Origin: Tetradesmus obliquus
Taxonomy: Eukaryota > Chlorophyta > Chlorophyceae > Sphaeropleales > Scenedesmaceae
Direction of reading: 5' to 3'
Assembly: GCA_030272155.1 (NCBI GenBank)
Contig: CP126193.1
Location: 6,324,001-6,388,000 of the forward strand
DNA: 64,000 bases
The notes below the pieces were generated by a model. The model was not told the origin of the DNA, searched no databases, and was given only the letters and a program-made list of their open reading frames with translations. Below are positions 1 through 64,000 of the stretch, in pieces. Made by a program: the position numbers and the translations under genes. Position 1 is the first letter of the stretch. The number at the start of each line of letters is the position of its first letter.

Positions 1-3000
1 ACCCAGCACCTCAAACAGCAGGTGCCGGATGTACTCCTGCAAAGTAGCAGCAGCACAGGAGCCTGAGGCATGCAGCACACAGAGGCCCGAGGCCTGAGGC
101 TATTATGCACACCACGATGCTGCCGTCACCCAGCACCTCAAACAGCAGGTGCGGGATGTACTCCTGCGGGCAGGAGACAAAAGGCAAATGCACAGCACAA
201 AAGACCTGAAGCAACTTTCTAAGACTAGCGCTCCACGATGCTGCCGTCACCCAGCTCTTGAAAAACAGCAGATGTACTCCTGCGGGCGGGCGGGTGGCAA
301 AAGGCGGTTATGGTCTGCATGTGAATGAATGCTGCCGGCAGCAAATGTCAACTGTGAAGTCCGTAGGGACTTTCCGCCAGCGGCACACAGAGGGTCCCAG
401 CTTTGCCGTGACCAATTCACGCGCAGGCGATGAAGAAGCACACACAAGCGCGCGTCAATCCTTTTCTCACCTGCAGTGGTGGCTGCCGCCCCCGCTGCCT
501 GGCCTGACTTTCAAAGACATGCTAACCCTGTCTAAACCCAAGTCATGCATCAACCCTGGCGTCTGCATAGCCCTTGCACTATGCACAAGCGCAAGCACAC
601 CACAGCCCTTATCTCACCTGCAGTGGCGGGCGCTGCCGCCGCTGCGTGCCTAACATTTGAATATATGGCCCAACCCTATCCAGACCCAAGTCAGGCATTA
701 ACCCTGATGTCTGTGTAGTCCTCGTGCTACGTGCGTGCAGAAGCACGCAGTACCCCTTTGGTCACCTGCAGTGGCGAGCGCCGCCGCCGCTGCGTGGCCT
801 TGTCAGGTGGCCTGCAGGCAAAGTACGCACTGTCCACTGCATTTGTCTGCCAGCAACCTAAACCCCAAACCCTAAACCCTAAACCTTTTCCTCACTTGCA
901 GAGGTGGCCGCCGCCGCCGCTGCGTGGCCTTGTCAGGTGGCCTGCAGGCAAAGTACGCACTGTCCACTGCATTTGTCTGCCTGCTGTCCAGGTTGCGCGC
1001 GTTGCGCAGCCGCATCATGACGCCCAGCAGGTTCTCCATGCGGACCTTGGACTCTGCGGCAGCAGCAGCAGCAGTGTCAACGGTGAGCCCGCTGACATCA
1101 TGGAGCATCATGAGGCTCAGCAGGTTCTCCATGCGGACCTTGGATTCTGCAGTAAAGAATGAAGAAACAACGGCAGCGATGGCAGCAGAAATGGCAATAC
1201 TATTACTACAACGGCATCATGACGCCCAGCAGGTTCTCCATGAGGACCTTGGACTCTGCAAAAGTAACAGCAGCAGCAGCAGCAGCAGCACCAACAGCAG
1301 CAACATCGGGAGCTTGAACGGCACGTTCAAATTTGTAGACAACTAAATTCATCAACGCTAGTGTTGCTGACAGCCAAACTAGACACCTAATCCAGGACGT
1401 CCCAAACCTTGCGCACAACGGCAGCAGAATAACAACAGCAGCAGGAAGCCGTGCTGTAGTGTGTAGCCTGCCTCACCCGGCAGCCGCAGCAGGAAGCGCC
1501 CCGCATTCTCCACCAGGGTGGCAGCAGCCTCCAAAGCAGGCCCACTGAAGTCGTCCAACCAGCATCACCGCCCCATCCAGCATTCCACGCATCTGATAGC
1601 ACATGCAACATGTGACTTACCATTGTCGCCCTTCCGGACACAGCACACACACCATACAACAGCGAAGCACACAGTATACAGCAGACACCACGTCACACCC
1701 CTGGTACAAATCACATAATGCCTCTCACCCGGCAGCCGCAGCAGGAAGCGTCCCGCATTCTCCACCAGCGTAGCGGCAGCGTCCACGGCAGCCCACTGAA
1801 GTCGTCCAGCAGCGCCACACTCCGAAAGTCAACATACGAAGCCCTCATACGGCGCATCTGGCTAAAAAACACCCGCCAAGCGTGCCAGAACACAGCACGC
1901 ACACTACAGACACATCAGACAGCAAAAGCACTTTTACCAAACCCATGTAACTCAACTCACCCGGCAGCCGCAGCAGGAAGCGCCCTGCATTCTCCACCAG
2001 CGTGGCAGCAGCGTCCACCGCAGGCCCGCTGAAGTCGTCAAGCAGCGCCTTCAGCCGCAGCAGCACCGCAGATGGCGGCGCCAGCCGGAACTTGGCCAGC
2101 TCAGCCAGGTACCTGCACAGACAAAAGTGACAAAGAAGAGTGAGCAGGGGTGCAGCCGCACACACAGAGTGAGGGCACTGCTTTGAGCCGAGCAGCGCCG
2201 CAGACGGCTGTGCCAGACAGCAAGGGTTGCTGCACAGAAACGAGTGAGCCAGCAACATAAGACGTGTGGCTGGATCACAAAGAGGAGGTTTCAAATCAAG
2301 CATTCAACCCGCCCACCTGGCCACCCTCAGGCGCGGCTCCTCGCCCATGCGTGTGAGGTCCTTCTTGGCAGCAGTGGCGTCAAACTCCGCCTCGACAGCA
2401 GCCAGCAGGCCTGCACGGGAGCAGCAGCAGCAGCGGCAGCAGCAGCAGCAAACGCATGTCAGGTCCATCTTGGCAGCAGTCACGTCAACTCCACTTTGAC
2501 CACGGTCAGAAAGCCTGCACCGCAATGCAGCAGGAGCAGGACACCACCTGCGAAAACAGCCGGTGTCTTGCAAGCAGCTACCCAGTGTCCTGCAAACGCA
2601 CCGCTCATACCCGCTCACTTGCCCCGGCCTCCAGGTACACGGCTACCCAGATCCCTGCAAGCAAGCACTCAGCCTTCTACAAGCACACAATCAACTACCT
2701 GCAAGCACACGAATCACCCTCACCTGCCCCAACCTCTGGGTACGCCTGTGCAATCGTTGCAGCCACGCGCGCATAGTACGGCAGCAGCTGCAAATTGCCG
2801 CGAGGCACATCCACGAGGGCCCTCACAAGCTTCTTCCGAGCCCCCTTGCTGTTGCTGTAGCAGAAGTTTACTGCCAGCTCATCACACAGATCTCTGCTGA
2901 CGCAGCTTGTCAGCCTGGCCAGAATGACATCCACTGCCGCCGGCGCTGCTGCTGCTGCTGTTGCATCGTCTGCGTCTGCTGCTGGAGGTTCTATTGCTGC

Positions 3001-6000
3001 TGCTGCTGCTGGCGTGTCGTTGCTGTCAGGAGCAGCAGCAGCTGGTACGTCTGCAGCAGCAGGCTCCTTTGCAGCAGCACTCGCTGACTCAGCATCTGCT
3101 GCAGCAGCTGCTGCATCGCCGCTGCTGCCAGCATCACCGCCGGACTCTGCAGCTGCTGCTGCTGCGGGTGTGCTGCTGCTGCCAGCGCCTGTCTCGCTGC
3201 GCCGCCGTGTTGCATCTTTCAGCAGCACTGTGGGTACCAGCGACCACAGGTCTGGCAGCTGCTCATAGAAAGCACGCACCTGCAGCAAGGGCAGAAACAC
3301 ACCAGCACATGTCATGCTGCAAGGCCAGACAGATCACTCACAGCATAGGCTCTATGCACTGTGGGCACCAGGGACCACAGGTCTGGCAGCTGCTCATAAA
3401 TGGCACGCACCTGCATTCAAGAAACACACACCGGCACATGTCATGCTGCAAGTCCAGACAGATCACCCAGAGCAAAGGCTCAATGCATTTGGACCATTGG
3501 TCTGGCAGCTGCTCATAGAAGGCACGCACCTGCAACACAGCAACCGAACACCATCAAATATGGCTTAATGACTAACAACAACAGGGCCATCTGAACTACA
3601 CGTCACAGAACCGCAGCCGGCCGCAACACTACTTGCTTTCAGCAGCACTGTGGGAACCAGGGACCACAGGTCTGGCAGCTGCTCATAAAAGGCACGCACC
3701 TGCAATCCATTGAACACAAAACAACACAATGCGACACTTCTCAGGAATGACACCTGCCTCAGGCACAAGCCCAGCCAGCTGCTACTCCGCTCATGAGTGC
3801 AACCCAATAAATTAGCCTTTACAGGCGTTTATGGCAGGAGCCGTGGCTCACCAGGGTGGAGGGTGGGTGCAGCTCTTGAAGGGTTCAGTGAGTGCTTGCA
3901 TTGTACTTAGCCCTTGTGCGTCGCCGTGGTCGACCTCTTCTTGGCTGCTGCCCTTGAGGCAGCAGCCAGTCAGTCGAATTAACACGCAACATAAACACAA
4001 ACAGCACATATCATGCAGCAAGTCCAGACAGACTACCCCACAGCATAGGCTCTGTGCATTTGGTGGCACAAGACAGCCAGTGTTGTCACAGAGCTGTCAA
4101 GGTGCCAAACCCATGCATCGTGTTCTATGGTTCACTCTCTTATCTTCTGGTCTCAGACCATGCTTTCACCCTGCTGTGGCTCATCCAATCCAAAATGGTG
4201 CCAGGACCCACATGTAACTATCCACTTTCATAGACCACCTCAGGACGAACCTTACAGAACCCACCTCAGGATCTTCGAAGATGTGTTCAATCGCATCAGC
4301 AGCTGCCCCAGGGGCGCCAGTTGCACCTGCAGCAGAGCCCTCATCAAGCCTGCATAGCAGTTGACAACGCATGACAGTGTGAGTGATGGAGCGCTCTACA
4401 ATGCAAACAGTAGGCACTCCTGCAGCCTGCCCCTCCTGCACAGCAGCCGACACATGTGTTTGCAAAGCCTGCACAGCAGCCGACACGTGTGTTATGCAAA
4501 TGCGTGCCGGAGTTCGGCGCGTGATCCATCACATCAGATCAGTGACATACGGGGCAGCTGCAGTCTGCCAACCCTAAGCTTGCACAGCCGTTCAAAAGGA
4601 GTTTCAAGCATCACAACCTAAAGCTAAAAAATAGCCCAACTCAAAACCCTCAAGCGCACCTTGTGAAGGCGTCCTCAGCCAGGTCAGGCAGCTGCTTGCT
4701 CAGCGCCTCAGCCATGGCTGCCACAGCCCTGTGCAGGCCCTCGTAGGCCTTGCGGCTGCTGCCTTGCCATGCATGCCATGGCAGCTTGCCAGAACCAAAA
4801 GGAACACAAGCTGTATATACACTATATATCTCATCAGTGACACCAGCTGACAGAGCACAGAAACCTATGCATTTAGCACCCCAAACCCTAAACAAAAGGC
4901 TCCCTAAACCCCTTCATGCCCACCTTGTGAAGGCGTCCTCAGCCAGGTCAGGCAGCTGCTTGTCAAGCGCCTCAGCCATGGCTGCCACAGCCCGGTGTAG
5001 CCCCTCGTAGGCCTTGCGGCACGACTCGTACTCCGCTGCTGCACCCTCTGGGAGCTCGCCCCTGCAGGCAGCAGCAGCAGCAACATCACATTCAAGCGGG
5101 CGGTTCGCCATTGCGGATCATCACGTTGATACCAACGCCAGTAAGTAGGAGCGCTGCTGCAATGGCTGCTTGGAGCGGCTGACGCACGCCAAGCCGAAGC
5201 TGCTCACTTGGTTGCATATGCATGTGCATTCTCCCGGTGGCGACCCTTGACAGCAACGCTGTGGCAGCTGCGTGCAACAGGTTAGCAAAACAAGGCTGCA
5301 GTACATTGATGCTGCTACAGGTGCCGCTCACTTTGCTGCATATGCGCGTGCATTCTCCCTGTCCAAGGCCAGCAGTACTTTGTTTACAGCAACAGTTAGC
5401 AGCGATTGCAGCAAGGCAAGCGTGCGCCAAACACAGCGCATCAGCAAACACTCACTTGGTTGCGTATGCGCGTGCATTCTCTCTATCCAGGGCCAGCAGC
5501 GCCTTGTGCGACTCCACCAGCTCAGTGCAGCAAAGCAAGCGTTCGCCAAACACAGCACAAAGCCAACACTCACTTGGTTGCGTATGCGCGTGCATTCTCT
5601 CTGTCCAGGGCCAGCAGCGCCTTGTGTGACTCCACCAGCTCAGCGCAGCAGCAGTCAAAGGCGCGGTCAAACATCTTCAGCAGCAGCGAGCGCTGCTCGG
5701 GCGGCAGCTGGTACCTGCAGCGCCACGAAGCAGTACGAATCTCAGCAACGCAGTGGCACTTGAACCCTGTTAAAGCACTTCTCTTGCTGGATTTGATGCA
5801 ATTGGCTTCGCAACTCTCGGTCAGGAGTAAACTGGGATGTTATTCTGTTGTTTGTGCCAACAGTCACAAGCAAACGCTCTGCCAACACATTTCACCTGGC
5901 ACAGAGCTTCAACTTCAGCACCAGCTCAATTAAAATGAGGCATGTCGCATGCTGCACCCACCGCTGCTGCATCTCCGCCTCCAGCTGCTTCTGCTGCTGC

Positions 6001-6203
6001 TGCAGCTCAGCAACAGCAGCAGCCAGGTCGCCAGGCAGAGACGACAGGTCCTGCGCACGCAGCCGGCAGCAACAGCAGGCGCAGCGGCAGCACGTCAACA
6101 CTCTCCTTTGTACAGCAAAGCTGCAAGTACAGCAGGCACTGCAGCAGCAGCAGCACTCCGCGTGCCTCACCTCTGCATGCAGCAGCTCTTGAGTACATCA
6201 GGC

Positions 6204-6278
<75 letters not shown>

Positions 6279-6332
6279 CTCCGCGTGCCTCATCTCTGCA
6301 TGCAGCAGCTCTTGAGGCAGCAGCAGGCGGCT

Positions 6333-6383
<51 letters not shown>

Positions 6384-6912
6384 GCAATGCGCCTCACCTC
6401 CGCATGCAGCAGCTCCTGTGGCAGCAGCAAGCTGCCAGCTGCTGCAGCTGCCCCCTCTGGCAGCGCGCCCAGCAGCAGCGGCGCTGCTGACTTTGCGAGG
6501 CCACCCAGCAGCGTTGCGTTGTGCAGGGAGGAATCCTTCTCCTTTGAGAAGTCCAGCGCAGTCACCTGCAGGGCAGTCATAACATGTTACATTTGTTACA
6601 TGTGTTATAAACATGTCATTTCACATGTTGCATGTGTTATAAAGTACGGCTGTGGTATGTATGTATGCAGCTGCAGTGCTTGCAGATGCGCGTGCAACAG
6701 TGTTTGTTACGTTCTACCGCAGCCAGCTTATACCGCACCACAGTAGCGGCTGACATGAAGCCTCCACATACGCGGAGGCCGCGCAAGCTGACTCACCAAG
6801 GTCTTCATCACGCCTAACAAGCCAGTCGCATCTGCCAGCACTCCAGCAGCCAGCAGCTCCGGCAGCAGCCGCAGCGCGCCACGCTGCCGCCGCGCAGCGA
6901 GGCGGTCGTCAT

Positions 6913-7324: not shown

Positions 7325-8878
7325 ATAGCAGTAGCAGGTTCTGTCATGTCTAGATGGATATGTAGATAGTAGTCTGGATGCAGGCAACAACAACCTGAAT
7401 GTTGGGCTGCTGTAGAGGTGCTGCGTACCTGCTCAGCATGTGCGGGTGCACCAAACAACCCTCTGCCCTGATGACGCAGTATCAGCAGCGCCTTGCCGAC
7501 TGTGAATCACAGTTGCAGCGCATCCCTTTCCGCTTGCTTCTTGGTTTTCCCATGGGAGCGTTGCTAATATCAGCTGGTGGTGACGTGCTTGAAGCAGCTG
7601 CAGCGCAGCCGCCCCCGCACCTTGCATGCAGCGCTGCCGCCAGGTCCACTGATGCAGGCACATGTGTGACTCCAACTCACAGCTACAGAGCAGTCGTACA
7701 GCTGGAGCGTACCCGCACCTTGCATGCAGCGCTGCTGCCATGTCCACTGCTGCAGGCACATCTGATGTCTTCAGAGGCACCTCTGCCAGCGCCGCCACAG
7801 CCTCGCTCACATACTGCAGCAGCACACAGGCACGCAGTCAAACACAGCGTTGACCAGGTGATAACCAAGGCTGAATGCCAACATTGCCGGGCATGTGTTA
7901 ATTCACAAAGCATCTCTCATCAGCAACATTTGCCACCTGCCTGTGTCACGCCTGTGTCACGCCTGCCTGTCAGCGCAGCACCTTGCTCAGGTTCAGTTTT
8001 GCCGCCTCCACTACCAGCTGCTACCACCCTACCACTACAACCCTGCATTACTACCCTGCACTACAACCCTGCCTGCCTATGTCAATCACACTCGCTGCCG
8101 CACCTTGCTCAGGTTGAGTTTTGCCGCCTCCGCCAGCAGCTGCTGCCTGTTGTCTGCCCCAAGGCCCCGCAGCTTCTTTATGAAGGCGCAAGCTGCCTCT
8201 GTGAACCTATCACTGCCGCACCAACACCTACTGGAGCAGTGGCTGCTCAGACCGACAAATCTACTCTGCCTGCCACCCGCCTGCCACCCTGCCACCTGCC
8301 TGCCACCCTGCCTCCCTGCCACCTCCCTGCCACCTCCCTGCCACCTCCCTGCCACCAAAGGCATCCTAAGCCTGCCAGCGCCGCACCTTGCTCAAGTTGA
8401 GCTTGGCAGCTTCCGCCAGCAGCTGCTGCCTGTTGTCCGCGCCCAGGCCCCGCAGCTTCTTTATGAAGGCGCCGTTCTTCTTGATGCTGCTGTCAAGGCG
8501 GCCCAGGTCACTCTCACCTAGCAGCAGCAGCAGCAGCAACACACTCTGTCAGGGGTGCACTATCATTGCAACACCCCCAAATTTCCCTAAAGCTGCTGTT
8601 GAGGCGGCCCAGGTCGCCCTCGCGTGGCGGCAGCAGCAGCAGTGTGAGCAGCAGTGCACACCCTGTTGCAACAATTGAACATAACTGCCACTGCACACTG
8701 TCAAGCGTGCTGATACTGTGCAGGCCCAAACACCTTTGCTTGCAGGCACTGCAATGAGCAATGATAGTATCAGCAGGGGTCCAGGAAGCTGTGTAGCAGC
8801 AGGACTTGCGGCAGCTGTGGCTTCCTGGCTAGCCTCTTTTGTCAGCGTCCCTTCATTGCTGCTCTTACTGCGCCATCA

Positions 8879-10788: not shown

Positions 10789-13362
10789 ATGGGGCCTCGT
10801 CCTGTTGTGTCAACTGCCCCAGCAGAGCAGCAGCCTCAGCCGGAGAAGATAAACCTGGATGATGGCCATGCCATCAAGCACAAGCTGGACTCCACAGCAT
10901 CAGAGGTAGGCCACAGCAGCAGCTGCAAGGGCATTTAACGTCAAATTTATTTATTTACGTTTAAACTAAGGATGGCTGCTGGGCACCTGTGGCTGAGGGC
11001 TGCCAGCACTTGTGCCAGTGCTCCCGCTGCTGTCACAGTCGACACTGCAGCAGCTGCTGCATGTGTAGCGCAGTGTCTGCTGGATTCTGCTTCTCAGCTG
11101 GCAGCAACAGCACAAACTCTACCCCTCTTGCAGTTTTTGCTGCCCAACATGCTGCTCTGCTGCTGCTGTGCGTGTGTGTCCTGCAGGTCATCCTGCAGTC
11201 GGGCTATGTAGAAGACCACTTGATCAGCAATGTGAAGATAACATTGGGGCTCATTGCGTAAGCAGCTGCACATCAGCATGCAGCAACTTGCAACCCTTGC
11301 ATTGTGACAGCTGGAAAGTTTATGCCGCACAGCACTGCCAGCGCAGCAGCTGCTTGCTTGAGAATCAGCAGCTGCAGCTAGCTTGCATCACCAGAGTGAG
11401 CAGCGTCAGCAGCCACAGCGCTGCCTGCTTGCAGGAAACTACGTCTGAAACAGCAGATGAGCCACAGTAATCAGCATTTGCGCTGCAGTTGCGAGCTGCA
11501 CAGGCATGCAAATATACCATCTACAGCAGCGCACCCCTCTTGGCCCATTTCACACAGCATACGCATTTCTGGCATAGCTGCGCTGCAACTCCCTGCCTGA
11601 TCTCAACTTTCTCATACTCATTCGCTCTCACATTTCCTGCAGCATTGCGGTGGCGATCTACTCGCACTTTGGCCCGGGCAAGTTTCCTGCAAACTGGAGT
11701 GCTGTGGTGTACTGCGTGGCGGCCTACTGCGTGCTCAACCTGGTGCTGATCATCTTCTGCAACATCAAGGAGGGGGACTCCTTCCTCATCACACACCCCA
11801 AGCCGGTGAGCTGTAGCAGCGGCAGCAGCAGCAACGGCAACAGCAGCAGCAGCAGGAACATGTGTGCTGCAGCAACTGCACGGACACGCGCAGCAGCAGC
11901 GGCAGCAGCAGCAGCCAGCAGCAGCAGCTGTGCCAGTTGCAATGCCGTGTGCACCAGCAACGGCAGCAGCAAATGCAGAGATGGCATCAGCAGCAACAAC
12001 AGCACTAGATGCAGCAGTGCCAGAATGTAGCGTACTCACATCATCAGGATATGTTGCTGCACAGGCTGTCAAAGTGCCTCTGCTGGCACTTGTCAGGTGC
12101 CCTCCTCTTATGAGCTTGCCTGTGATCTGCTGCCCAAAACAACCCTACACCGACAGGGCAGCGAATACGGGCTGCGTGTGGCCTCGCGCATGGAGCGCTA
12201 CTCGGACCAGTACACGCTCATCATCAGCAGCGCTAACAAGTGGCTGGACAGGTGCGTAGGCACACTGCGCCCGGCAGCAGTGTAGCTGCAGCAGCACCTG
12301 TGGGTGGCTGGATAGGCATGTATGCACAAGTTGCACAGCAGCAGTGCAGCAGCAGCAGCACCAGCAGCAGCAGCGCCAACAAGTGTCTGGACAGGTGTGT
12401 AGGCACAGTGCGCGGATGTGTGCTTGGAATGGTCGCAGCAGCAACAAGGCAAGTACCAATGGCAGCAGGGATACCAAGTCGCTTGAATGGTGCCCCAGTA
12501 CATGCTCAGCATCAGCAGCGTCAAGAAGTGGCTGCTTAGCAGACCAGCTCTTGGGCCTGCCAAGCATGTGGCCGTGGCCTGTAGTGGCAAGCAGCTTATC
12601 CTGCAAACAGGGTATATGTGATGCCTGCAGGCAGTTTAACGCCGCGCGGGCGCAGTAAGGTTGTTGTACTTTGCAGCGCGCATTGCTGGCAGGGCACGAC
12701 CTCCGCTGACATGTCCTGTGTGCTGTTGTTTTTCCTGCAGGGAGGTGAAGATGGAGACATCAGTAACGGACTACTTTCACTCCGACGGATACCTAGCCGA
12801 GGTGCGCACCTGCGCTGCAGCTTGCTGTCTCACAATGGTTCAGCGCAACAACCTTTCCTGCTGGTCGGGTTGCTGACTTGGGTGTGATTGTTCAAGCGGC
12901 CACCGGCTGTGTGCATCAGCGACTGTGCACCAGCAAGCAGCAGGTGACATGCTGTGACCGGCTTGATGTGATATCACCCGGCTGCTTGCTGTGGAACAGC
13001 TGCTGGTATGTTCAGACTATAGGGGCATCTTACTGTCCATTTGCTTTGATTGTCATTCTTCAACGACACAGTGCCTGTCTCAGCTTCCTGTTCCATCAGA
13101 GAGTGCCTATCCACCCCAATGCTGTTGCTTTTGAAAACATGCGGCGCTCGCTGCTGCCCTGCCACACGCCTAGTACAAGTACAAGCACCCGCGCCTATCT
13201 TTTGTTCATGCCCTTTGGTGCTGCTGCTGCTGCTGCTGCTGCCGCACCACAATGCAGGCCAAGTACAAGCACCACGTGGCCAAGCTGCTGTCGCAGTACG
13301 AGCGGCTGGACGCCAGCAGCGACCCGCGGCCCAAAGCCCTGAACCCCGGCAAGCAGGACTGA
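10789..13362 (+). CDS. SPCS2: Signal peptidase complex subunit 2 (SPC25 family)
   Basis: This accessory subunit of the ER signal peptidase complex helps cleave signal peptides from secretory proteins. Six exons: 10789-10905, 11187-11257, 11643-11805, 12097-12251, 12741-12801, 13258-13362; phases agree and give 223 aa. Family landmarks in order are DDGHAIKHKLDSTASE, YVEDHLISNVKITLGLIA (first membrane helix starts), YSHFGPGKFPANW, a second hydrophobic helix (VLNLVLIIFCNIKEGDSFL), then SDQYTLIISSANKW and VTDYFHSDGYLAE, as in human SPCS2. The length matches the family (about 190-230 aa). The start is the ATG at 10789, just before the conserved N-terminal block. Decayed copies of the exon 4 edge sit at about 12303-12400 and 12507-12540. 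Confidence 0.93.
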
Positions 13363-48570: not shown

Positions 48571-49230
48571 GCACAGCACTCACCAGCCACGCTGTACGCA
48601 AGGCCCTGCCGCATGCGCAGCAGCAGCAGCAGCACTCACCAGCCACGCTGTACGCCAGGCCCTGCCTGGTTCTCAGCTCGTCAAAGAGCGTGCCTCCAAA
48701 GCCATTCAGCGTGGAAGCCAGCACATCCAGCGCATAGCAGTCGGGGTCAGACAGGCTGATGCCGGGCTCCCCAGTGTACACACTGGCCTGCAAGATTGAC
48801 AGGAGGGTCCAGCATATCACAGTTTCAGCAAATGACGGGGTTCAGCACATCCAGCGCGTAACAGTCAGGGTCAGACAGGCTGATGCCTGGCTCCCCAGTG
48901 GATGCACTGGCCTGCAGAATATGACAGAATGCAACAGGGCACAATGCTTGAAGGTAGGGGTGCGGTGTGATGTGTTGGCTCTACGCCAGAGAGGAGCCAA
49001 CAGCCGGCCAGCACACTGGCGTGCAGGACAGTGCAGGAGCTGTTATGCTGCTCAGGAGGAAGCGCAACATGCAGCAAGCAGTTACCATTGTGCAATGGCT
49101 GGCGGCCAGCAACAAAAATGGTGAAGAGCCACTTGGTGCAGCTGCAGTCAAGGGCAGAGGCCCAACACGAAAACGGTGGAACCCACCTGCTTGGCATCTG
49201 GCCTGTCCACAAGGTACACCACCTGGGACG

Positions 49231-50522: not shown

Positions 50523-52085
50523 ATCGACAGTGATGTAAAGGATGTGGTTCTCACAACAGCAGTTTCAGGGGTGCATGAGAAAAGCATCAGGACAACGAAA
50601 CAGACGGTTTGATTCGGCAGCCAGGCAGGGACTCAGCCACATGGTTGAACACCAGTCAAACGTGGTCAGCTGAGCTGCTGCCCTGTACTGGTGGCAAGCA
50701 GCGCTGCTGACCTGTCATGCACTGGAAGTCAAAGGTGGTTGACTGCTGCCCTGCAGAGGCCTCGAGGGATGCAGCAAGGTCCTCCAGCCTGCAGCAGCAC
50801 AGAATGCACCAATGTCTTGACGTTGTGTGCTGCTAGGCTCCTGTTGGTTGCACAAGGTAGCAAGGAACGCACTTGCATCTAACAGGCTGCAGGCGCCATT
50901 TGCTGTACAGCGGCGCATGCCTGCTAGAGTGCTGCTGCTGCTGCTGCCGCTGCTGCTCACCGCTCGTCCATCTGGTCGGCTGGGTGAGCTCTGCTGCCGC
51001 CGGCGCGCTGCACAGCTGCTGCGATGCTGGCAAGACCGACATGCTCTGGAGGGCTGGACACCTAGTGGCAGCGGCAGCAGCAGTAGCAGCAACGACTGCA
51101 ATGTGGCAACATACGCCATCTGTAAAGTAATTTGAACTCACTACCATGCGGATACCACACATCAAAGCATTGATCCAACACACTTCTGTAACTCGTGCTC
51201 ACCTGGCCGCCAGGCATGAGCAGGCTGCCCCTGATCAGCGGCACTTCCCTATCTTCCAGCAGCGTCACCCGGAGCCCATTCGGCAGCACCTCTTGGTATA
51301 ACACCGGCTGCTGCTGCTTTGGCAGCTCAGGGAAGCTGCTTGGCAGCGTCTGCACCTTGGACATGCTCCGAAGGCATGACTGAAGCAACAACCCAAAGCG
51401 AGTAGAAGAGTACAGCAACGTTCACCACTCAAACCTCCAAAAAACTCGTGCTCACCTGGCCGCCAGGCATGAGCAGGCTGCCCCTGATCAGTGGCACCTC
51501 CCTATCTTCCAGCAGCGTCACCCGCAGCCCATTGGGCAGCACTTCTTGATACAGCAGCGGCTGCTGCTGCTTTGGCAAGTCTGGGAAGCTGCTTGGCAGC
51601 GGCGGCAGCTGGCCATACACTGCAGGGGGCCCACCCGGGCCACTGGTGCTGCTGAGTGGGTCTACTGCTGCTGCTGCTGCTAGTGATGCTGCTGTGTTCG
51701 GTGCTGCTGAGTCTGGTGTTGTTAAGTAGGGTGCGTAAGGCAGCTGCAGCAGCTGCATGTGGCGGTGCATCAGCTGCTTCGCTGCGGGGTGTTGCTGCTG
51801 CTGCAGCTCTGTCGGCATGGAAGCAGCAGCTGCATGTGGGGGCACTGCTGCATCCAGCAGTTGTAAGATAATGAAGGCGCATGCCAGTGGCAGTGCTGCC
51901 ATGTTGACACCTGTGTCTGTACTTCTTTGAAATTGTGCTCTGCTGCAGTTTGAGGGTGTGGTCTGTTGCTGCTGTTGTACTGCAAGCGCTGTGTGCACAG
52001 GCGTTCTGCAGGGTCCATAGCTTCTTAAACCATTCCGTGCTGGCCGATGGTGTAAGGCCAAGCGGTGTTGCTGCAGTGGAAGCAT
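47202..52085 (-). CDS. M16-family peptidase-like protein, probably non-catalytic
   Basis: Exons (high to low) 51456-52085, 50961-51061, 50712-50788, 50317-50458, 50062-50123, 49775-49899, 49187-49390, 48640-48787, 48151-48230, 47702-47863 and 47202-47390 are in phase; 639 aa. Family blocks: VLPNGLRVTLLEDREVPLIR, VGLASIAAAVQRAGG, ADQMDERLEDLAASLEASAG, DDNASGVARRELYKLLYGQD, DLAAHIAAWQRPDGAILGLV, then the second domain PDCYALDVLASTLNGFGGTL, ELRTRQGLAYSVAANWDSP and RVEAVTAQQMVEAAARHLHP. The HxxEH zinc motif is replaced by AAAVQRAGG, as in non-catalytic M16 subunits. The N-terminal 130 residues include Arg-rich LALHHRPARNGLRSYGPCR, which could be a mitochondrial or plastid targeting sequence. The intron after exon 48151-48230 starts with GC, not GT. 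The start at 52085 is preferred over an upstream ATG at 52139. Confidence 0.88.
48238..48285. repeat. CAG microsatellite before an M16 acceptor
   Basis: On the coding strand this is a CTG run of about 15 units ending a few bases before the acceptor of exon 48151-48230. Comparable CTG runs precede the acceptors at 49899 and 50458 in the same gene. Confidence 0.9.
48488..48639 (-). repeat. Donor-edge copies of M16 exon 48640-48787, with a CAG run
   Basis: Copies of the RQGLAYSVAG exon end lie at about 48488-48520 and 48588-48620, with a CAG run at about 48525-48570 between them. An acceptor-edge copy of the same exon (GEPGISLSDPDCYALDV) is at 48838-48911. Other M16 edge copies: 47954-47994, 49623-49690 and 51195-51330. 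Confidence 0.8.
50461..50522. repeat. CAG microsatellite, about 20 units, at an M16 acceptor
   Basis: One of the longest pure runs in the window. On the coding strand it is CTG and abuts the acceptor of exon 50317-50458, so it occupies the place of the polypyrimidine tract. Confidence 0.93.
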
Positions 52086-52997: not shown

Positions 52998-54969
52998 AGA
53001 ACAGCAGCAGCTGCAGGACTACTGCACATGATGAAGTCAGGTGGCTGTGGTCAGTGCTGTTGTCCAATTTCCAGTTTGCCCGGCACATGTGACAGCAGCG
53101 GCAAGCGCAGCGCCGCTTGGGGGCAAGCCTGGTTGAATGCACTGATTGCTTGCACCAGCACAGCAACTCAACACCAGCACAGCTGCATACTCCTGTGAAC
53201 AATTCTTCGGGGAGTTGGTTTCAATAACATGTTTAGACATATGAAGCCTGCCATCCTCAGGGCTGTTAACTGAAGTGCATGTTTTGTATGTGTGCTTCCA
53301 ATCACACATCCTTACAACACGCACCAAACTAAATGTGTTGGCACCTTTACTTTGCTCCTCCGCTGTGCTGCAGCTGGTGTTTGAGCGTGGCCTGCATGGC
53401 AAGCCGCACCTGCTGCCGCAGTCTGCAGGCGCTGCCGCCGCTGACGTGGCAGCCCAGCTGCAGTTCAACCTGGCACACACACAAGCGCTGCTGGGTGAGT
53501 AACAGCATTTACCATGTCACTGGTATTATGTAACTATGTTTATTTTGTTTTTTGGGGGCTGCAGCTGACCTTTTCAAAGACCCCGCCTGTGTACGCCAGC
53601 CACTTCCAACAGTGCAAGATACAGCACCTCAAATTCAAACTGTTGCTCAGCCTCTCTGGCTTGAAACCGCCTGTCACATAGCTCATCATGTTATTTGTCA
53701 TTTGTGACACGTTAAATAACAGGTTGTGCGGTGAGCCTGGGCCTGCCTGTGGGCCTGGACGTGGAGCTGCGGCAGCGCAGCGCCGGAGCCAGCAGCGGCT
53801 TCATGCGCCTGGCTAAAAGGCGCTTTTCTTTGGAAGAGGTTGCGCAGCTTGAAGGTGAGCACATGTTACGACAACGAGTGCACGAGGCTGTGTGCAAATG
53901 GCTGGCGCCAGCAGCGGCTTCATGTGCCTTGCACGGCGACGCTTCTCTGCTGAGGAGGCCGCGCAGGTTAAAGGCCCGTGCATTCATCGAGTGATGAAGA
54001 GCAACCAATGCACATGATGTACGCAGGTGCGTCACGTTATCACACCAAGTAAATGTCCATTCCTGCTGGGTTGGGTGCCAGCAGCAGCAGTAGCAGCGGT
54101 CGTGTACTTCATGCGCCGACTCCAAGGCTGCTCAAGGGCAGTACTGTCCCGCTGCTTGCTGTTTGCAGCGCTGGGTGATGAGTCGTCCCGGGCCGCGCTG
54201 TTCATGGCGCTGTGGACGCTCAAGGAGGCTGTGGTCAAGGCCAAGGGCAGCGGCATCTCTGCACCACCAGGGCTCAAGGGCTTCAGCATCCGTAAGTAAC
54301 AAATGCAACTTTTTTTCTTGTGCAGCAAGGCGGCAGTATAAGTAAACATTATACGCACGAGCTGCCTGTGCTATTGTGCATCAGGGTGGCTGTTGGAGAG
54401 CCTCTCAGCACATGGAATGGCCGCAGGAGCTTCAGCTTACTGCTGCAAGTCAGCAGCGCACGTGCTGCACGGGTAAGGATGGGGTTGCAGTGGTTTGAAG
54501 GGGCGAGGCACAGCGTGCTTAGGGGTTATGTGGTCAAGGCCAAGGGCAGCGGCATCTCCGCTCCACCGAGCCTCAAGGGCTTCAGCATTCGTGAGTGACA
54601 ATGTTTTCACATAGTGAATCTGAGGGCATGTACCGGGATATCCTGTCTGCGAACAGAGGCAGCCACAAGTGCAATGGTAGTGAAGGGCAAAGGCGGCAGT
54701 GACGGGGTGAAGACCAATTGCAGCGGCATCAGCACGTCGCCTAGGCTCCTGGGCTAGCAGGTGTCAGGGCATGTCGTACACGCATACCGTATGTTCTGTT
54801 GCACGGCTCAGGCTACACCGCTAGCTACTTGATTCAGAACAAAATGTGTGTGATGCAATCAGCACCTCACCCTGCGTGCATTCCTGACTCTGTGTGGATG
54901 CATACCCTGCCATCTGCAGGATTCCCAGCACGTGAAGAGGGACGCATTGGACAGCTGCTGCAAGCTGTG

Positions 54970-56731: not shown

Positions 56732-57898
56732 CGCCTCTGTGCCTCACCTTGATCGTTGCTCCCTGCCACAGGTGGTGTGACTGTGGTAGCCACCAAGGAT
56801 GCTTCCGGCTACAGTGTGCTGGTGGAGGCTGCACCAACAATGCACCTGCTGCTGCTGCCGACCCCTGTGCCTGCCGCTCCTTTGCTTTGCTGCAGGTGGC
56901 GTGACTGTCGTGGCAACAAAGGATGCATCCGGTTACAGCGTGCTTGTTGAGGCTCAAGAGCCCCGCGGCATGGTGCTGCACTGGGGCATCAACGAGTGGG
57001 AGGCGCCCCCTCAGGAGCTGCTACCAGAGGGCTCCAACAAGGTGCGTTTGATTGCTTTGTGATGCTGCGTACGCCTTATGAGCTTTGCTGCTGTTGGAAA
57101 ATGTGCTTGTTGCAATGATTTTGGCAGAGCCTGGTGCGGAGAGGCAAGACAGCTGTGCAGCAGCAGCAGCAAACGATGACGTCAGGGTGGTGTGTGCTGC
57201 ACTGGGGCATCAACGAGTGGGAGGCGCCGCCCTAAGAGCTGCTGCCAGAGGGCTCCAACGACAAAGGTTAGGAACGCGCATTCCTAACCTTTGTCGTTTT
57301 GGGTTTTGTTTACTGCAACATCATCACAACGCTTGTACACCCGTGTGTTCTGCCGCCACAGCATCCTGCTTACAACATTGAAAACATGCCATCGCCGCAG
57401 GTTGACGACAAGTCTGTGCAGACGCACTTCAAGGACGGCCGCAACGTGTGGCTGCACTTCCCCACCAGCAACGCGCCGGAGCGCATCGTGTTTGTGCTCA
57501 AGGAGCTGTCCCCGGAGAACTGGATCAACAACGGCAGCTGCTACAGCGTGCAGGTGGGCGCGGTTGCTATGAGTGTGACGATCTTGCAGCAGCAGCAGCA
57601 GCAGGGCCTGGCGCAGTGCAGTGGCAGCCACATGCGTGCGTGTGTTCATGTTTGTGAGCAACAGATGCCAGACGCTCCCTGGAGAGCTGGGTCAACAGCG
57701 GCAGCTGCTACAGTGTGCAGGTGGCGTGGTTACTACATTCATATCAACACGGCAGCAGCAGCAGCATTTGCCACGTTGCAGCAGCAGCAGCAAGCGCACA
57801 TGCATTTGGCCCTTGTTCATGCCCGTAATGTGCTGCTGGGGCAAGCGCTCTCAATGCCATGCGGATGCACCTGAAGCTTTCTGTTGCTGCTGCTGCTG

Positions 57899-57939
<41 letters not shown>

Positions 57940-60900
57940 ACCAACAGCTGAAGCCCCCGGGCATCGACAAGCTCATCAGCCGCGTGTTGGACTGTGAGGG
58001 CGAGGCCAGCCACTGGAGCCTGAAGGACAGGCTGGTGCTGGTCAACGACGTGCTGGACGGCTTCGCAGCAGCAGGTACGTTTTGGCAATACTTTGTTTTT
58101 GCCGCAGGCTCGGACGGCATGGGACTGCTGTTCACCTGGTTGCGCATGCTTCCATCATCATCCGATACACCTGATCTGAACACCAGAGCACGCTGATTTT
58201 TACATGCTGCAGGCCCGGACGGCATGGGCTTCATCTTCACCTGGCTGCGCATGAGCAGCAGCAAGATCCTGACCTGGGCGCGCCGCAGCAACTACCAGAG
58301 CAAGGACATCGCGTGGATGCAGAAGGTCACCAGCGAGCGCATGACAGACAAGGTGCGGCATTTTTAGGGCAGCACGTGTGTAGGGTTTAGGGCAGCAGCT
58401 TCAGGGTTTGGGTGAATGCGAGGGTTTATGGCAACTACCAGAGCAAGGACATCGCGTGGATGCAGAAGGTCACCAGCGAGCGCATGACAGACAAGGTGCG
58501 GCGGTTTAGGGCCGCGCATTTGCAGGGTTGAGGGCAGCAGCTTGAGGGTTTGGATGAATGCGAGGGTTTAGGGCAACTACCAGAGCAAGGACATCGCGTG
58601 GATGCAGAAGGTCGCCAGCCAGCGCATGACAGACAAGGTGGGTGGGTTGAGGGCAACATGCGGTGCACAAGTTTTGGGGAGGGTGTAAGCTGCAGGAGTT
58701 TGTGTGGCCTTTGAGCGGTCCTGCAAATGCAGCTGCTGTGCATATGCAAAACTTGACCATAACCCATTGGTCTCATGTCTTTCATTTGCAGGCGCGCGCC
58801 CACCCCGACCCCTGGGTGCGGCTGTATGCCCGGCTAGCCCTGGCAGGCCTGCCTCGTGGTGGCGGCAACGGTGATGACATCCGCATGGGCATCCTGCACA
58901 TCATGCGCGAGTACGGCATCAAGGAGGGCCACAGGCCGGTGAGCATATGTTTTGCATTGTGTTATAACATGTGTTAGTAACATGCCGGCCGTTTGCACAG
59001 CGATGACATCCGCATGGGCATCCTGCATATCATGCGCGAGTACGGCATCAAGGAGGGCCACAGGCCGGTGAGCGCAGTTGTTAAAACATGTTGTAACATG
59101 TGTTAGTAACATGCTGGCCGTCCGTGCAGCGATGACATCCGCATGGGCATCCTGCATATCATGCGTGAGTACGGCATCAAGGAGGGCCACAGGCCGGTGA
59201 GTGGCGTTTGAATTGTGTTATAAAATGTGTTGGTGACATGGCGGCGGTGCTGCAGCATGTGCTCAAAGTATCGGTGCGCCAACCATTCAACAGCTTCCTG
59301 TCGGTCCCTTGGGGATTCGGGTTTAAAGACACTTGTCCGCGTTGCTGCGGTATGGTAACTTCTTCGCCATGTTGAATTAAACTTGTTGCTTCTGTCTCCT
59401 GCAGGGCATCGACGAGCCCTGCCTGGCCTACCTGCGACTGTTAGTTACCATTCAAACAATGTCAATTGTATGTCATTGCAGGGCATTGACGAGCCGTTCC
59501 TGGAGCAGTGGCACCAGAAGCTGCACCAGAACACCACCCCTGAGGATGTGTCCATCTGCGAGGCCTACCTGGCCTACCTGCACAGCGGCAACCACGACGA
59601 CTACTGGCGCGTGCTGTGGGACCACGGCAAGATCACCAAGGAGCGCCTGGAGGGCATGAACATCCCCATCAAGGGTGAGGGGGCATGCTGTTTGCTTTTT
59701 TGTTTGGGATATGGCCTGGCGCTGAAATGTTGGTACTCGGTGTTGTGACTGTGACGATGCGGGACCACGGCAAGATCACCAAGGAGCGCATGGAGGGCAT
59801 GAACATCCCCATCAAGGGTGAGGTTGCTTACATTTTGGGGATATGGTGTGGCTGCTATGCTTGTTGACTTGCTGTTTTCGTGCTGTGGGACCACGGCAAG
59901 ATCACCAAGGAGCGCATGGAGGGCATGAACATCCCCATCAAGGGTGAGGGGGCTCGCACATCATGCTTGACCTTGCAGACATAATTTGAACGTAGATGGA
60001 GTATACCTATAATATTTTGCCGGGCCTCGAACAGCCTGTGGAAGCTTGTTGAAGACAGCCATGTTGTTGCTTATCTCAGACTTTCTGACCGCTGCTTTGT
60101 GCATGTTTGTCAACTTGTATCTGCAGCGTGGCCGCAGCACCTGCCGCACATGATCAACGCGTTCAAGGGCTACCTGTGGACGCTCAAGACGTGCCACTCC
60201 GGCGCTGACATGGACACGGCAGCGGAGATGGCCAAGGGCCACCTGGACGGCGACACCACCTGGATGCTCTTTGACATGCTGCAGAACAGGTGCGGCAACT
60301 GCAGGAATAAGAGACTGCTGCTGACAGCATGTGCGCCTGTTTGGAAAGGGTGGTGAGCTATATGCTTGCCAATTGGAGGGATGGGGAGGGTGTTGAACTA
60401 TGGTTTGGCATATATAAAGCGTCTGTTTTGTTGTGATATGGCCAAGGGCCACCTGGACGGCGACACCACCTGGATGCTGTTCGACATGCTGCACACCAGG
60501 TGCGGCACCAGTTGTTCAAACACACTACAAACTTGACGGTTACTGCACCTGCGTAGCTGGTCATTATCTCCTTGTGGTGCTGGGGTTCTGGCCAAGTTGC
60601 TTGAGCAAACTTTAAGCAAACTTTAGCGCCGATTTTTGAGCTCTACGCCTGCACCTGTTATCTGTGGCTACGTGTGTAACACGTGTTAGTTCACAGCTGG
60701 CTGAACTGTATGGGTATGCCACAGTGTTGACCAAATACGCCTAAACAAACAAACATACAAACAAACACATGATGGTGCTTGCAGGAACGAGTGGTGGGTG
60801 CCTGGCAAGATTGTGCAGGTGCCGCGGCCATAATGCTGCTTCAACAACAACCAAACACACAGCAACTAACAAACAAACCCTGCTGTTGCTTGCAGGAACG

Positions 60901-63900
60901 AGTGGTGGGTGCCGGGAAAGATCGTGGAGGTGCGCAAGCGCCTGGCTGGCGTGTGGCGCGCCCCGGGCGGCAGCAGGGACGTGCTGCTGCTGGACATCGC
61001 GCTGGACAACTACTTCAGGTGCGGCCTGCGCTGCTGTGTGCACTGCATTTTGTATTTTCTGAGCGATTTGATGACAGCATGTGCACCTGGAGGGACGTGC
61101 TGCTGCTGGACATCGCACTGAACAAACTACTTCAGGTGCGGCGAGTGCTGCGGACTGCAGCACGCATGATGTTTGAAAACACAACAAGTTATTGATCACC
61201 TTCTGCTGGACATTGCACTGGACAACCGCGTCGTGTGCAGAGAGGGGCTGTCTGGCATTGTCTTTTCATTGCCCAGTAATGCTCTAGTCATGTGGCTCTC
61301 TGGGGCTTGTGGCTTGTGTGTGGGTGTTCCACGTTTCAAGAAGGAGCGTTACATTGCTTTGTTCATTGCTCTCTGCTTGCAGGACAATGATTGAGCGCAC
61401 TGACCGCTCCACGCTGAGCAGGGACAACCTGGTGGACATGGTCGGCATGGTGCTGGAGAACGCAGGCATTGCGGTGAGTGACATGTTATTTTCAGTTCAA
61501 ATCATGCATGCACAGCTGTCGACGGGCCTGTGAGACAAAGTGATTTCATATGCTGCTGCATCATGCAACACATGATGTGAGTGCAAGCACTTTGACTGTT
61601 CAACTGCAGGACGTGCTGCATGTTGCAAACTCATGCGGTTGCCCCACTTGCAGCAGTTGGCCTGCCCTTTAGACAGGCCTATTCGCACCCTCCGCGTCCA
61701 TTCGTCTTCTCGTAACACTTTCCGCCCAGATCGGCTAGCACAGTGCACCTTTGGCACAGGTGACCAGTTCATTCAATTTCTCGTGGCTGGTAACATGTGT
61801 GTCGCATGTCTCGCGGCTGCGAACGGTGGCTGCTCGCAGGAGAGCGCCACTGGACCAGGTGCTTGCTGATACTGCGTCGCACAGCGCACATTCCCATCAG
61901 TCATGCATTAGTTCACTCTGTTGCGGGTCATAACACTTATGTTTGTGGTGCGGCTGCGATCAGTGCGAGAAGTAAGCAGCTAGTGTCATGTGCAGGTGCT
62001 TGCAGGACAGCTGTCCCCTTCAGCAGGCCCAACCTCTTCGCACCCAGCACCATTCACAAACAGCGAAGAAAAAGATCAGCAGCTTGTTTTTCGGATGTAC
62101 AGTGCACTGTCCATGACTGTGGAAAGCGCACGCAGGCAGCAAAGCATCAGCACAGTGTGCTTGTACTGGCAGTGCACACCTGCATGGTGACCGTGTGGTG
62201 TTACCCAAGTCGTACTATTTTACCAGTAGGACTTTAAAACAACCTTTCAACTATCTCTGATGAATTTATTGACTAGTTGCAGCCCTCTGAGACCGACAGT
62301 GCAGACTCTGGACTCTGTTGGTCCCATCTAAACAGATCTGTCACACCTACCCAATGCATGTTTCAAGGGCCTGTCGATCACAAACACTACACTCATTGAT
62401 AAAACTATCTCTGACTGGCTAAGATGGGCAGGCCCGCACGGCGATAGCCGAGCTTGTTTTCTAATCTTTTGCTGTGCGGTGTCTACTGTTTCCCGCCTGC
62501 AGTGCGAGTCGGACGACCTGCAGCAGTGCGGCAGGCTGTGGGGCCGCGTGGCTTCTGCAGGCAACCGCTGGAGCGGCGAGTGGGGCCTGCAGGCACTTGC
62601 AGCAGCGCAGCGCCTGGAGCTGTCGCTTGCAGGATACGCGGATGACATGTGCAGCCACACACAGGTGCGACACACAGAAGGGCTGCTGGTTTGGACAGGG
62701 ATAATCAGGTTGTGCAGGATCCTCTGATCCAGTGGCCTGCTGATCCGTGCACGGCGTCCACGGTGGCGGTGCAGCTGGGCAGGTTGCTGCATCGACCTGC
62801 ACCCTGTCGACAAGCTGCACGTTCAATCCGTGTGCTTCACACCGTTGATGAATCACAGCTCATCCTGTTCTCACTTTTGCATGTCTTCTGGCCTCCTGTG
62901 ATGCCGTTGGCTGTTGTCACTATGGCTCAATTGCTGACACGGTTTGTATGCTGCTGTCTGCTGCCGCCTGCTGCTGCAGCGCCACGCGGAGGCGCTGGGC
63001 AAGGCAGCCAAGGTGGACCAGGCATTCATCCTCAACTTTGGGGAGGAGGTGGTGCGAGGCCAGCCCGTGTTTGTGCTGAGCGGGCTGCTGCAGGACCTGG
63101 AGAGGCACCTGCGCGACGCAGCTGGCGCAGGACCCTGGCAGGTGAGGGTTTGAGCATATGTTTGACCAGATGTTTGACCAGATGTTGACCTTGCAGCAGC
63201 AGACTGTGTTGTGCTGCTATGGCTTTCAGACTTCCTGCAGGCATTGTCACCCTTTTCCGCAAATTGTTCAGGATGCTGCTCATCAGTGCTCAAGTAGGCT
63301 ATGTCATATGTTGAGTGCTGCATGTGTTGCCTGCTGCAGGTCATCAGCCAGATGCCTGCTCTGGGTGAGGTGACAGTCCAGAGCCTGACAGACATCAAGG
63401 GCCAGGCCTTCGCTTCAAACATAAAGTAGCACCTTTCAAGCACTTTTCCTCAGCAGTGTTTGTGTGTTGCTGCGCCTGCTGCCCCATCCTGCAGGTCATC
63501 AGCCAGGTGCCTGGTCTGGGCGAGGTGACAGTGCAGAGCTTTGCATGAAATCGGGGTTGTTGCTTAGCATTGTCTGTGTTGCTGTGCCTGCTGCCCCTCC
63601 TGCAGGTCATCAGCCAGGTTCCTGCACTGGGTGAGGTGACAGTGCAGAGCCTGGCAGACATCCAGGGCCAGGCCTTTGACAAGCCGCTGGTGCTCATCTG
63701 CGAGAAGCTGGGAGGCATGGAGGTGAGCAGCAGCAGCAGCAGCAGCGCTGCATGGACTAAGCAGCTGTGTGTGTGGGTTTGCAAATTCAGTTGCTGTGCT
63801 TGCTGCGTGATTGGTGCTAGAGGCTCTGCCAGCTTCGGGTGTTCCGTCCAGATCACGTATAGATGCAGCCAGCGCAGCAGTCCCACAATGCATGCCTGCC

Positions 63901-64000
63901 ACTAAAGTCAACTGCTTATTCTTGCTGTATCGGCACTGCTGCGCTGCTGCTGCTTGCAGGACATCCCGCCAGGCATCACTGCTGTGCTGACCAAGAGCAG
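56237..64000 (+). CDS. GWD: Alpha-glucan water dikinase (GWD family), partial
   Basis: GWD phosphorylates starch glucosyl residues with ATP in the plastid, opening granules for breakdown. Fourteen exons: 56237-56392, 56896-57041, 57401-57553, 57948-58074, 58213-58352, 58792-58938, 59482-59674, 60127-60289, 60896-61018, 61383-61473, 62503-62664, 62980-63141, 63606-63722, 63960-64000 (cut). Phases agree; about 640 aa in the window. The Ser/Arg-rich start (SSRRSSVVAHAVQAPPAPA) looks like a chloroplast transit peptide. A CBM45-like starch-binding module follows (VLHWGINEWEAPP, ENWINNGSCYSVQ). The dikinase core shows EPFLEQWHQKLHQNTTPEDV, LWTLKTCHSGADMD, WWVPGKIVEVRKRLAGVW and LLLDIALDNYFRTMIERTD. 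The window ends at DIPPGITAVLT, just before the catalytic histidine. Only about 640 residues precede it, shorter than plant GWD1 and nearer PWD. The start codon is not found. Confidence 0.9.
56418..56484. repeat. Long hairpin in a GWD intron
   Basis: Arms 56418-56447 and 56457-56484 are complementary over 28 base pairs with one 2-nt bulge, including 18 consecutive perfect pairs, around a 9-nt loop. It starts 26 bp after the donor of exon 56237-56392. Confidence 0.92.
56772..56835 (+). repeat. Acceptor-edge copy of GWD exon 56896-57041
   Basis: Repeats the acceptor and first ~20 codons (GVTVVATKDASGYSVLVEA) with silent changes. It has no donor. A degenerate copy of the same exon's other end, with an in-frame TAA, is at about 57185-57262. 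Confidence 0.85.
57257..57298. repeat. Perfect 18-bp inverted repeat in a GWD intron
   Basis: Arms 57257-57274 and 57281-57298 are perfectly complementary around a 6-nt loop (CGCGCA). The left arm begins inside the degenerate copy of exon 56896-57041. Confidence 0.95.
57880..57940 (+). repeat. CTG microsatellite before the GWD acceptor at 57947
   Basis: About 18 CTG units, with two CTA interruptions, end 7 bp before the acceptor of exon 57948-58074. The coding strand carries CTG, as in the other intron ends of this window. Confidence 0.92.
58430..58640 (+). repeat. Two donor-edge copies of GWD exon 58213-58352
   Basis: The exon end YQSKDIAWMQKVTSERMTDK and its GTGCGG or GTGGGT donor recur with donors at 58496 and 58638 (functional 58353): spacings of 143 and 142 bp. 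TTTAGGG-like telomeric motifs lie between the copies. An acceptor-edge copy of this exon is at about 58108-58150. Confidence 0.92.
58998..59200 (+). repeat. Two donor-edge copies of GWD exon 58792-58938
   Basis: The exon end DDIRMGILHIMREYGIKEGH recurs almost unchanged with donors at 59068 and 59197 (functional 58939): spacings of 129 and 129 bp. The intron start, with its GTTATAACATGTGTTAGTAA-like sequence, is copied too. Confidence 0.95.
59755..59950 (+). repeat. Two donor-edge copies of GWD exon 59482-59674
   Basis: The exon end DHGKITKERMEGMNIPIK recurs with donors at 59818 and 59944 (functional 59675): spacings of 143 and 126 bp. Both copies share an R-L-E to R-M-E change relative to the functional exon, so one copy probably arose from the other. 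Confidence 0.95.
60430..60500 (+). repeat. Donor-edge copy of GWD exon 60127-60289
   Basis: Repeats the exon end MAKGHLDGDTTWMLFDML with a GTGCGG donor, about 210 bp downstream of the functional edge. An acceptor-edge copy of the next exon (NEWWVPGK) is at about 60775-60820, and donor-edge copies of LLLDIALDNYF are at about 61090-61140 and 61200-61230. Confidence 0.9.
63339..63547 (+). repeat. Two acceptor-edge copies of GWD exon 63606-63722
   Basis: Copies at 63339-63412 and 63495-63547 repeat the CTGCAG acceptor and VISQ-P-LGEVTVQS before the complete exon at 63606. They lack donors, and the later one is shorter and more decayed. Confidence 0.92.

Follow-up and report, generated by a model that had tools for sequence, protein, structure and literature searches.

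Human genes reportedly harbor intron-bearing tandem arrays, described by Zhuo et al. in 2007, whose repeats are said to define new, alternatively spliced introns. In this study, we analyzed a window of 64,000 nucleotides (C3:6324001-6388000) of the genome of the chlorophyte Tetradesmus obliquus, in which exon edges have been copied into introns. Like the arrays reported for human genes, those of T. obliquus are direct repeats that contain splice sites; unlike them, the T. obliquus copies border conserved exons and decay. A single tandem duplication across an intron-exon boundary made a new intron in the potato RdRp gene (PMC4974935). T. obliquus shares with this case the crossing of the boundary and the duplication of splice signals, but the consulted part of the potato report concerns one event in one gene and a new intron, whereas 46 of 124 junctions in six T. 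obliquus genes are affected, at both intron ends, with copies inside longer introns. Intron gain in Drosophila has involved a piece of exon, containing a proto-splice site, that was duplicated in tandem (PMC2891723). This is likewise a local tandem duplication that alters exon-intron structure; however, coding sequence was duplicated there and a new intron arose, as the part of that report consulted describes it, whereas in T. obliquus one of the breakpoints is intronic and introns already present become longer.

Junction-spanning tandem duplication is known as single cases, to judge from the consulted text of PMC4974935. No report of junction duplication as a pervasive process was found in the literature, of which subscription journals were little covered. 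Introners, which have terminal repeats and target-site duplications, are another route by which introns are added. The T. obliquus copies resemble them as a recurrent process adding intron sequence genome-wide, but introners, as portrayed in the consulted part of PMC9860276, copy themselves into many genes, and the T. obliquus copies are local to each exon edge.

Exon-edge copies inside and outside the window

The genome comprises 104.7 Mb in 17 contigs, and the window was compared with blocks of 20 kb from a seeded random list (14 blocks, of which L003_L004 reads N and was dropped, leaving 13). Local direct repeats were searched by self-BLAST at offsets of 20-1500 bp with low complexity masked, and repeats that were more than half low-complexity were excluded; a CAG-rich array of the M16 gene (48561-48666) was left uncounted on low-complexity grounds. 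We found 390 local direct-repeat matches in the 324 kb of window and blocks, compared with none in either block-shuffled or third-order Markov sequence. Only 13 local inverted repeats were present, and a single mobile-element-like block (L013_L014, C14:1450001-1470000), which also has an open frame of 5.6 kb, holds 10 of these.

Exons were predicted with an unsupervised hidden Markov model (HMM) gene finder, which learned a donor of about CAG/GTGAG and an acceptor of about TGCAG/G (the slash marks the splice site) and mistook several in-frame decoy copies for exons. Because the gene finder mislabels some copies, the main counts are those of six genes with exons set by spliced alignment. In the window, these are GWD, UPF2, and M16, whose exons were placed with homologous proteins, a few outer exon ends being kept from the gene finder; the exon ends of the other window genes come from the gene finder only. 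In the random blocks, we chose the genes for ferredoxin-NADP reductase (FNR), beta-amylase (BAM), and oligopeptidase B, recognized via relatives in the PDB, and aligned their exons with our own cleaned proteins. Anchored-exon labels for the random blocks at large proved unreliable, so the main counts were limited to the six genes. From the junction census onward, tiny artefact exons of <15 nt in FNR and BAM were dropped. The relative P0001, which shares 92% identity with the GWD query and probably derives from a transcript, to judge by its name, matches the exon bodies and skips the copies. The T. obliquus protein OEZ86_003220 matches 52% of the UPF2 query at 100% identity.

In UPF2, M16, and GWD, all 25 arrays were edge copies (rotation mean 11.2, maximum 19 in 2000 rotations), and intron-only arrays numbered 0 against 8.4 under rotation; an array at the window edge (1-290) was omitted from this count. 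In the random-block genes, 21 of 25 arrays were edge copies (null 6.95), two were unclassified, and two were intron-only (null 11.8). Both intron-only arrays sit together in a 3.1-kb intron of oligopeptidase B (L023_L024, 4824-6634), where a missed exon is possible. Taken together, 46 of the 50 arrays in the six genes copy an exon edge, and random placement predicts 18. The 46 junctions with copies, among the 124 junctions of 62 introns, comprise 24 donors and 22 acceptors, and 38 of the 62 introns, on four contigs, contain an edge array. With gene-finder labels and matches of offset >700 or length >800 removed (as also in the distance-to-exon census below), the whole sample gave 87 edge arrays among 169 (null 35.1, maximum 51 in 500), 5 intergenic arrays against 27.4 expected, 22 exon-exon arrays against 47.5, and 9 unclassified arrays. 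Exon-edge copying in T. obliquus is confirmed as real, beyond chance, and present outside the window too. The first-pass annotation of the window had claimed such a general process, affecting nearly all window genes, and both statements hold: copies occur in the random blocks as well, and all ten named gene units of the window have at least one array, including the KAP-NTPase gene, which that annotation had not listed.

Other details of that annotation needed revision. An affected junction carries 1-8 copies rather than one to five, and spacing covers a broader range than the 120-145 bp proposed: the nearest copy lies 93-167 bp away at 36 of 46 junctions and 210-283 bp away at the other 10, with none between. 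The splice site is not included in every copy: a few stop short of it (e.g., at GWD junction 57041). The splice dinucleotides are intact in 82 of 85 copies. The copies extend outward from the exon in all 46 edge arrays, as had been described, although tandem topology forces this position. The copied exon part measures 25-155 nt and is shorter than its exon at 46 of 46 junctions, and no match in the 46 edge arrays spans a complete exon of at least 30 nt.

A larger set contained 80 edge copies at 556 junctions, 60 of them with a period of at most 180. In these 60 arrays the intron part (period minus exon part) was never <38 nt (46 at donors), a bound that uniform breakpoints would give with P of about 10^-5.2. 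Direct measurement in the six genes found first spacers of at least 41 nt throughout and one later spacer of 32. This bound would be simply explained if the exon-proximal site depends on retaining the signals on its intron side. The periods modulo 3 were even in the six genes (17/14/15) and less even in the 80-junction set (21/22/37). A fixed exon part of about 65 nt, suggested by several GWD donors, failed in the larger set of 80 copies. The copies differ by 0-29%, with differing spacers and indels, and some arrays have spacers of evident homology (26 adjacent pairs).

In arrays, telomere-like heptamers had a density of 1.08 per kb; the densities were 0.40 for the remaining introns, 0.67 for intergenic sequence, and 0.77 for exons, with shuffled-word controls of 0.68, 1.10, 1.02, and 0.58, respectively. 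Eight longer CCCTAAA/TTTAGGG runs were found at five places, three of which lie in edge arrays (857-885, 4902, and 58383-58573). The runs in arrays are suggestive of repair of breaks, but the cases are too few.

Decoy splice sites and intron length

The copied splice sites score as high as the real ones, with medians of 6.7 for decoy donors (n = 40) against 6.7 for real donors and 8.1 for decoy acceptors (n = 45) against 7.7 for real acceptors. Exon and decoy differ by 234 synonymous, 163 nonsynonymous, and 6 stop changes (58% synonymous). This synonymous excess suggested coding constraint on the copies, an idea that the copy-private changes do not support: at junctions with at least three copies, these comprise 11 synonymous, 30 nonsynonymous, and 3 stop changes (codon positions 14/17/13), and the synonymous share of 11 of 44 compares with 27% expected by chance. 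Changes common to several but not all copies were synonymous in 17 of 24 cases, as expected if the exon rather than the copy changed. Since the private changes stand at the neutral ratio, the copies behave as intron.

At 40 of 46 junctions, a transcript spliced at the nearest decoy would be frameshifted or run into a stop codon, and the decoy sites are apparently ignored by the cell. Opposite splice sites at the exon-side end of the copy were not enriched (acceptors, n = 42; donors, n = 46). A mini-exon arrangement, in which each copy would adjoin a small but complete intron, seemed plausible on visual inspection and was rejected for lack of such enrichment.

Introns with edge arrays had a median length of 492.5 bp (n = 38), which fell to 232.5 bp once the inserted units were subtracted, compared with 229.5 bp in array-free introns (n = 24); a looser array criterion gave 474 against 229.5 bp (40 and 22 introns). 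The inserted edge arrays, which make up 38% of intron bases in the six genes, account for the length gap between array-bearing and array-free introns and have roughly doubled the affected introns. The first-pass annotation was therefore right that the process lengthens introns and creates decoy splice sites. Its further suggestion that the copies could seed alternative splicing or new introns was not borne out, given the neutral private changes, the frameshifts and stops above, and the unenriched opposite sites. The mean intron of T. obliquus, 462 bp against 230-302 bp in three other Sphaeropleales in the data consulted from PMC5966456, fits intron growth in this lineage. Intron length alone is not diagnostic, because Volvox has a mean of 491 bp according to the consulted part of PMC4378016.

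Arrays of the window

In the window, 65 local direct-repeat matches formed 38 arrays, all inside or at most 400 bp from the ten named gene units. No array was mostly intergenic, though 12.6 kb of the window is labeled intergenic. A gene-finder prediction at 18129-19388 (two exons, low complexity) had no array, and the array at 31726-32017 in the KAP-NTPase gene is a CTG-rich repeat labeled intron, not an exon-edge copy. Stricter but less reliable labels gave 27 edge, 10 intron-only, and 1 exon-exon array across the window. The exon-edge arrays and copies, together with a 137-bp-unit array of the CFAP92-like gene, are as follows.

Genes with homology-placed exons:
460..984, minus strand, UPF2 donor-edge array (exon 896-1053; x 89, period 147; one spacer with a telomere-like run at 870)
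1012..1276, minus strand, UPF2 acceptor-edge array (exon 896-1053)
1472..2049, minus strand, UPF2 donor-edge array (exon 1961-2112)
2349..2539, minus strand, UPF2 acceptor-edge copy (exon 2317-2410)
3216..4063, minus strand, UPF2 acceptor-edge array, three copies (exon 2724-3279)
4644..5020, minus strand, UPF2 donor-edge copy (exon 4924-5061)
5199..5650, minus strand, UPF2 donor-edge array (exon 5574-5714)
6130..6451, minus strand, UPF2 donor-edge copy with a CAG run (exon 6398-6565)
7614..7764, minus strand, UPF2 donor-edge copy (exon 7719-7813)
7965..8472, minus strand, UPF2 donor-edge array (exon 8387-8517)
8486..8642, minus strand, UPF2 acceptor-edge copy (exon 8387-8517)
47828..47998, minus strand, M16 acceptor-edge copy (exon 47702-47863)
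48719..48927, minus strand, M16 acceptor-edge copy (exon 48640-48787)
49620..49831, minus strand, M16 donor-edge copy (exon 49775-49899)
51190..51610, minus strand, M16 donor-edge copy, 155 nt of exon (exon 51456-51818)
56973..57259, plus strand, GWD donor-edge copy, ending 3 nt short of the donor (exon 56896-57041)
57509..57735, plus strand, GWD donor-edge copy (exon 57401-57553)
58100..58253, plus strand, GWD acceptor-edge copy (exon 58213-58352)
58288..58654, plus strand, GWD donor-edge array, two copies, period 143 (exon 58213-58352)
58873..59256, plus strand, GWD donor-edge array, two copies, period 129 (exon 58792-58938)
59610..59953, plus strand, GWD donor-edge array, two copies, 143 and 126 (exon 59482-59674)
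60225..60507, plus strand, GWD donor-edge copy (exon 60127-60289)
60743..60933, plus strand, GWD acceptor-edge copy (exon 60896-61018)
60975..61159, plus strand, GWD donor-edge copy (exon 60896-61018)
63330..63676, plus strand, GWD acceptor-edge array, two copies (exon 63606-63722)

Genes with exon ends predicted only:
12207..12534, plus strand, donor-edge array of the SPC25-like gene
15854..16099, plus strand, acceptor-edge repeat of the barrel-like gene (no Pfam match)
21735..21939, plus strand, acceptor-edge copy of the MnmA gene
26333..26575, plus strand, donor-edge copy of the pICln (Voldacs) gene
36804..36969, plus strand, donor-edge copy of the KAP-NTPase gene
38511..38688, minus strand, donor-edge copy of the CFAP92-like gene (name from the first-pass annotation)
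41749..42501, minus strand, array of the CFAP92-like gene, about 4.5 units of 137 bp at about 95% identity
42493..42730, minus strand, acceptor-edge copy of the CFAP92-like gene, period 146
54230..54601, plus strand, donor-edge copy of the PPTase gene

In addition, a near-identical C-terminal peptide (VLAGLPDDQRAAVLAARAEGALGL...) is encoded by the final predicted exons of two genes about 10 kb apart, pICln (Voldacs; 26821-27382) and KAP-NTPase (36728-37341), which resembles the copying of a 3' gene end. CAG/CTG runs are frequent in the window (e.g., 6205-6386, 24099-24150, 50462-50521, and 57881-57939), and some sit in predicted exons, whose predicted products carry stretches of Gln, Ser, and Ala as a result.

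Origin of the copies and its meaning

We consider recurrent, exon-anchored local tandem duplication, tolerated since exon definition picks the exon-proximal site, to be the best explanation, with a probability of roughly 0.5. In T. obliquus genes, local tandem duplications some 90-170 bp long would recur, one or both of their breakpoints falling within an exon; those wholly within exons would be purged, and only those straddling a junction would be silent, provided that the spliceosome pairs sites across the exon. The copies would then drift neutrally and could re-duplicate, so that introns lengthen unit by unit. Intron definition would instead favor the decoys, which are closer across the intron. 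When two equal 5' sites competed in human minigenes whose flanking introns measured 365 nt, splicing under exon definition chose the exon-proximal site exclusively (PMC9225289). Such a cross-exon proximity rule would also explain the presumed use of the exon-proximal of two equal sites in T. obliquus, although the consulted part of that work covers human genes and not green algae. Breakpoints inside exons also seem favored by the mutation process itself, because random duplication followed by selection needs a detection handicap of about 8-fold or greater for intron-only pairs to explain their shortfall. In a simulation in which the inserts were collapsed and random tandem units dropped, 65% of the survivors were intron-only, compared with 2 of 48 seen. 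When the comparison with the 2 intron-only arrays was restricted to arrays having 40 or more non-exonic aligned columns (25 such arrays in our own tally, in which these columns of multi-copy arrays include older exon copies), P was 0.003 at a handicap of 4 and 0.1 at 8.

It is possible, though we regard it as rather unlikely, that survivorship alone produced the pattern: duplication would be equal everywhere, exon-internal copies would be purged, and intron-only and intergenic pairs would fade as both copies mutate and intron indels accumulate. The depletion of exon-internal arrays, of which the six genes have none among 50, agrees with this, as do gap columns of about 8.5 per 100 aligned in intron parts against 0.4 in exon parts, a period similar across all array classes, and intron-only arrays at expectation under gene-finder labels. 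Survivorship nevertheless requires the handicap of about 8 or more (the tally above still counts against it at 4, less so at 8), and leaves the shortage of intergenic arrays, both under gene-finder labels and in the window, on the other side. Alternatively, both breakpoints could be set by a junction-targeted process (splicing-coupled breaks, R-loops, or exon-positioned nucleosomes and Okazaki fragments), yielding units of about 120 bp. In all 60 arrays with a period of at most 180, the junction falls between 0.20 and 0.64 of the unit; the period range is narrow with none <90 at edges, donors and acceptors are affected at similar counts, and intron-only arrays are nearly absent in the six genes. 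However, the bound on junction position follows from the intron minimum of at least about 40 nt together with the detection limit on the exon part, and centring is unneeded; we hold this proposal to be decidedly unlikely. The broader claim, that junctions are the target of a dedicated mutation process (through splicing, or through exon-positioned nucleosomes or replication fragments) which inserts copies of about 120 bp, about doubles the affected introns, and fixes the lineage in exon definition, is doubtful; the fixation would follow because the introns carry equal-strength decoys that intron definition would choose.

The remaining alternatives carry little weight. Retention of the copies as regulated alternative exon ends or splicing buffers would be consistent with the intact dinucleotides, with the strength of the decoys, with exon parts that diverge less than spacers, and with the overall synonymous excess. 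We judge it improbable, since the private changes are at the neutral ratio with stops included, the changes common to several copies are of the kind expected from change in the exon, use of the nearest decoy would mostly disrupt the frame, and the period shows no preference modulo 3 in the six genes, less clearly so in the 80 junctions. That the arrays are remnants of new-intron making, or introner-like insertions, is very improbable. New introns are known from the literature to arise by tandem duplication, in one case across an intron-exon boundary according to PMC4974935, but opposite splice sites are not enriched at copy ends, and a 967-bp GWD stretch, the only locus tried against the whole genome (with simple and very common words skipped), matched itself and one 139-bp segment at 77%. 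Tandem repeats are a known source of misassembly; an assembly artefact is nonetheless hardly conceivable here, with copies that differ by up to 29%, unequal spacers and indels, and more than half of the introns in the six genes affected on four contigs.

Several observations weigh against exon-anchored duplication as we propose it. In the gene-finder-labeled sample, intron-only arrays were not depleted (46 against a null of 47.3), a count that speaks against edge targeting. Label error explains part of it, since 9 of 38 arrays called at least 200 bp from an accepted exon adjoin homology-placed exon edges; that the remainder is label error is unproved. Many two-copy arrays align only 0-24 nt of intron despite about 90% exon identity, so that a contiguous tandem unit is not visible. 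The exon parts of adjacent copies diverge by 7.8% and the spacers by 13.3% (26 pairs), which neutrality alone would not predict; possible causes are gene conversion and a higher decay rate in the repeat-rich spacers. Nearest copies most often differ from their exon by 6-12% (27 of 46) and seldom by <4% (6 of 46), a peak away from zero that may reflect a past burst or episode rather than a steady rate. The PDB comparisons used proteins already stripped of the suspected copies and so confirm family and frame, but not independently the absence of copies. Finally, Volvox and Chlamydomonas have been argued, in the consulted part of PMC4378016, to use intron definition.

Annotators of such genomes should be warned that in-frame decoys can pass for exons, as they did in our HMM gene finder. 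The arrays also set up dozens of natural contests in which equally scoring splice sites compete at a distance of about 90-170 bp, so that intron versus exon definition becomes testable in green algae. Moreover, they offer a countable route of intron growth, unit by unit.

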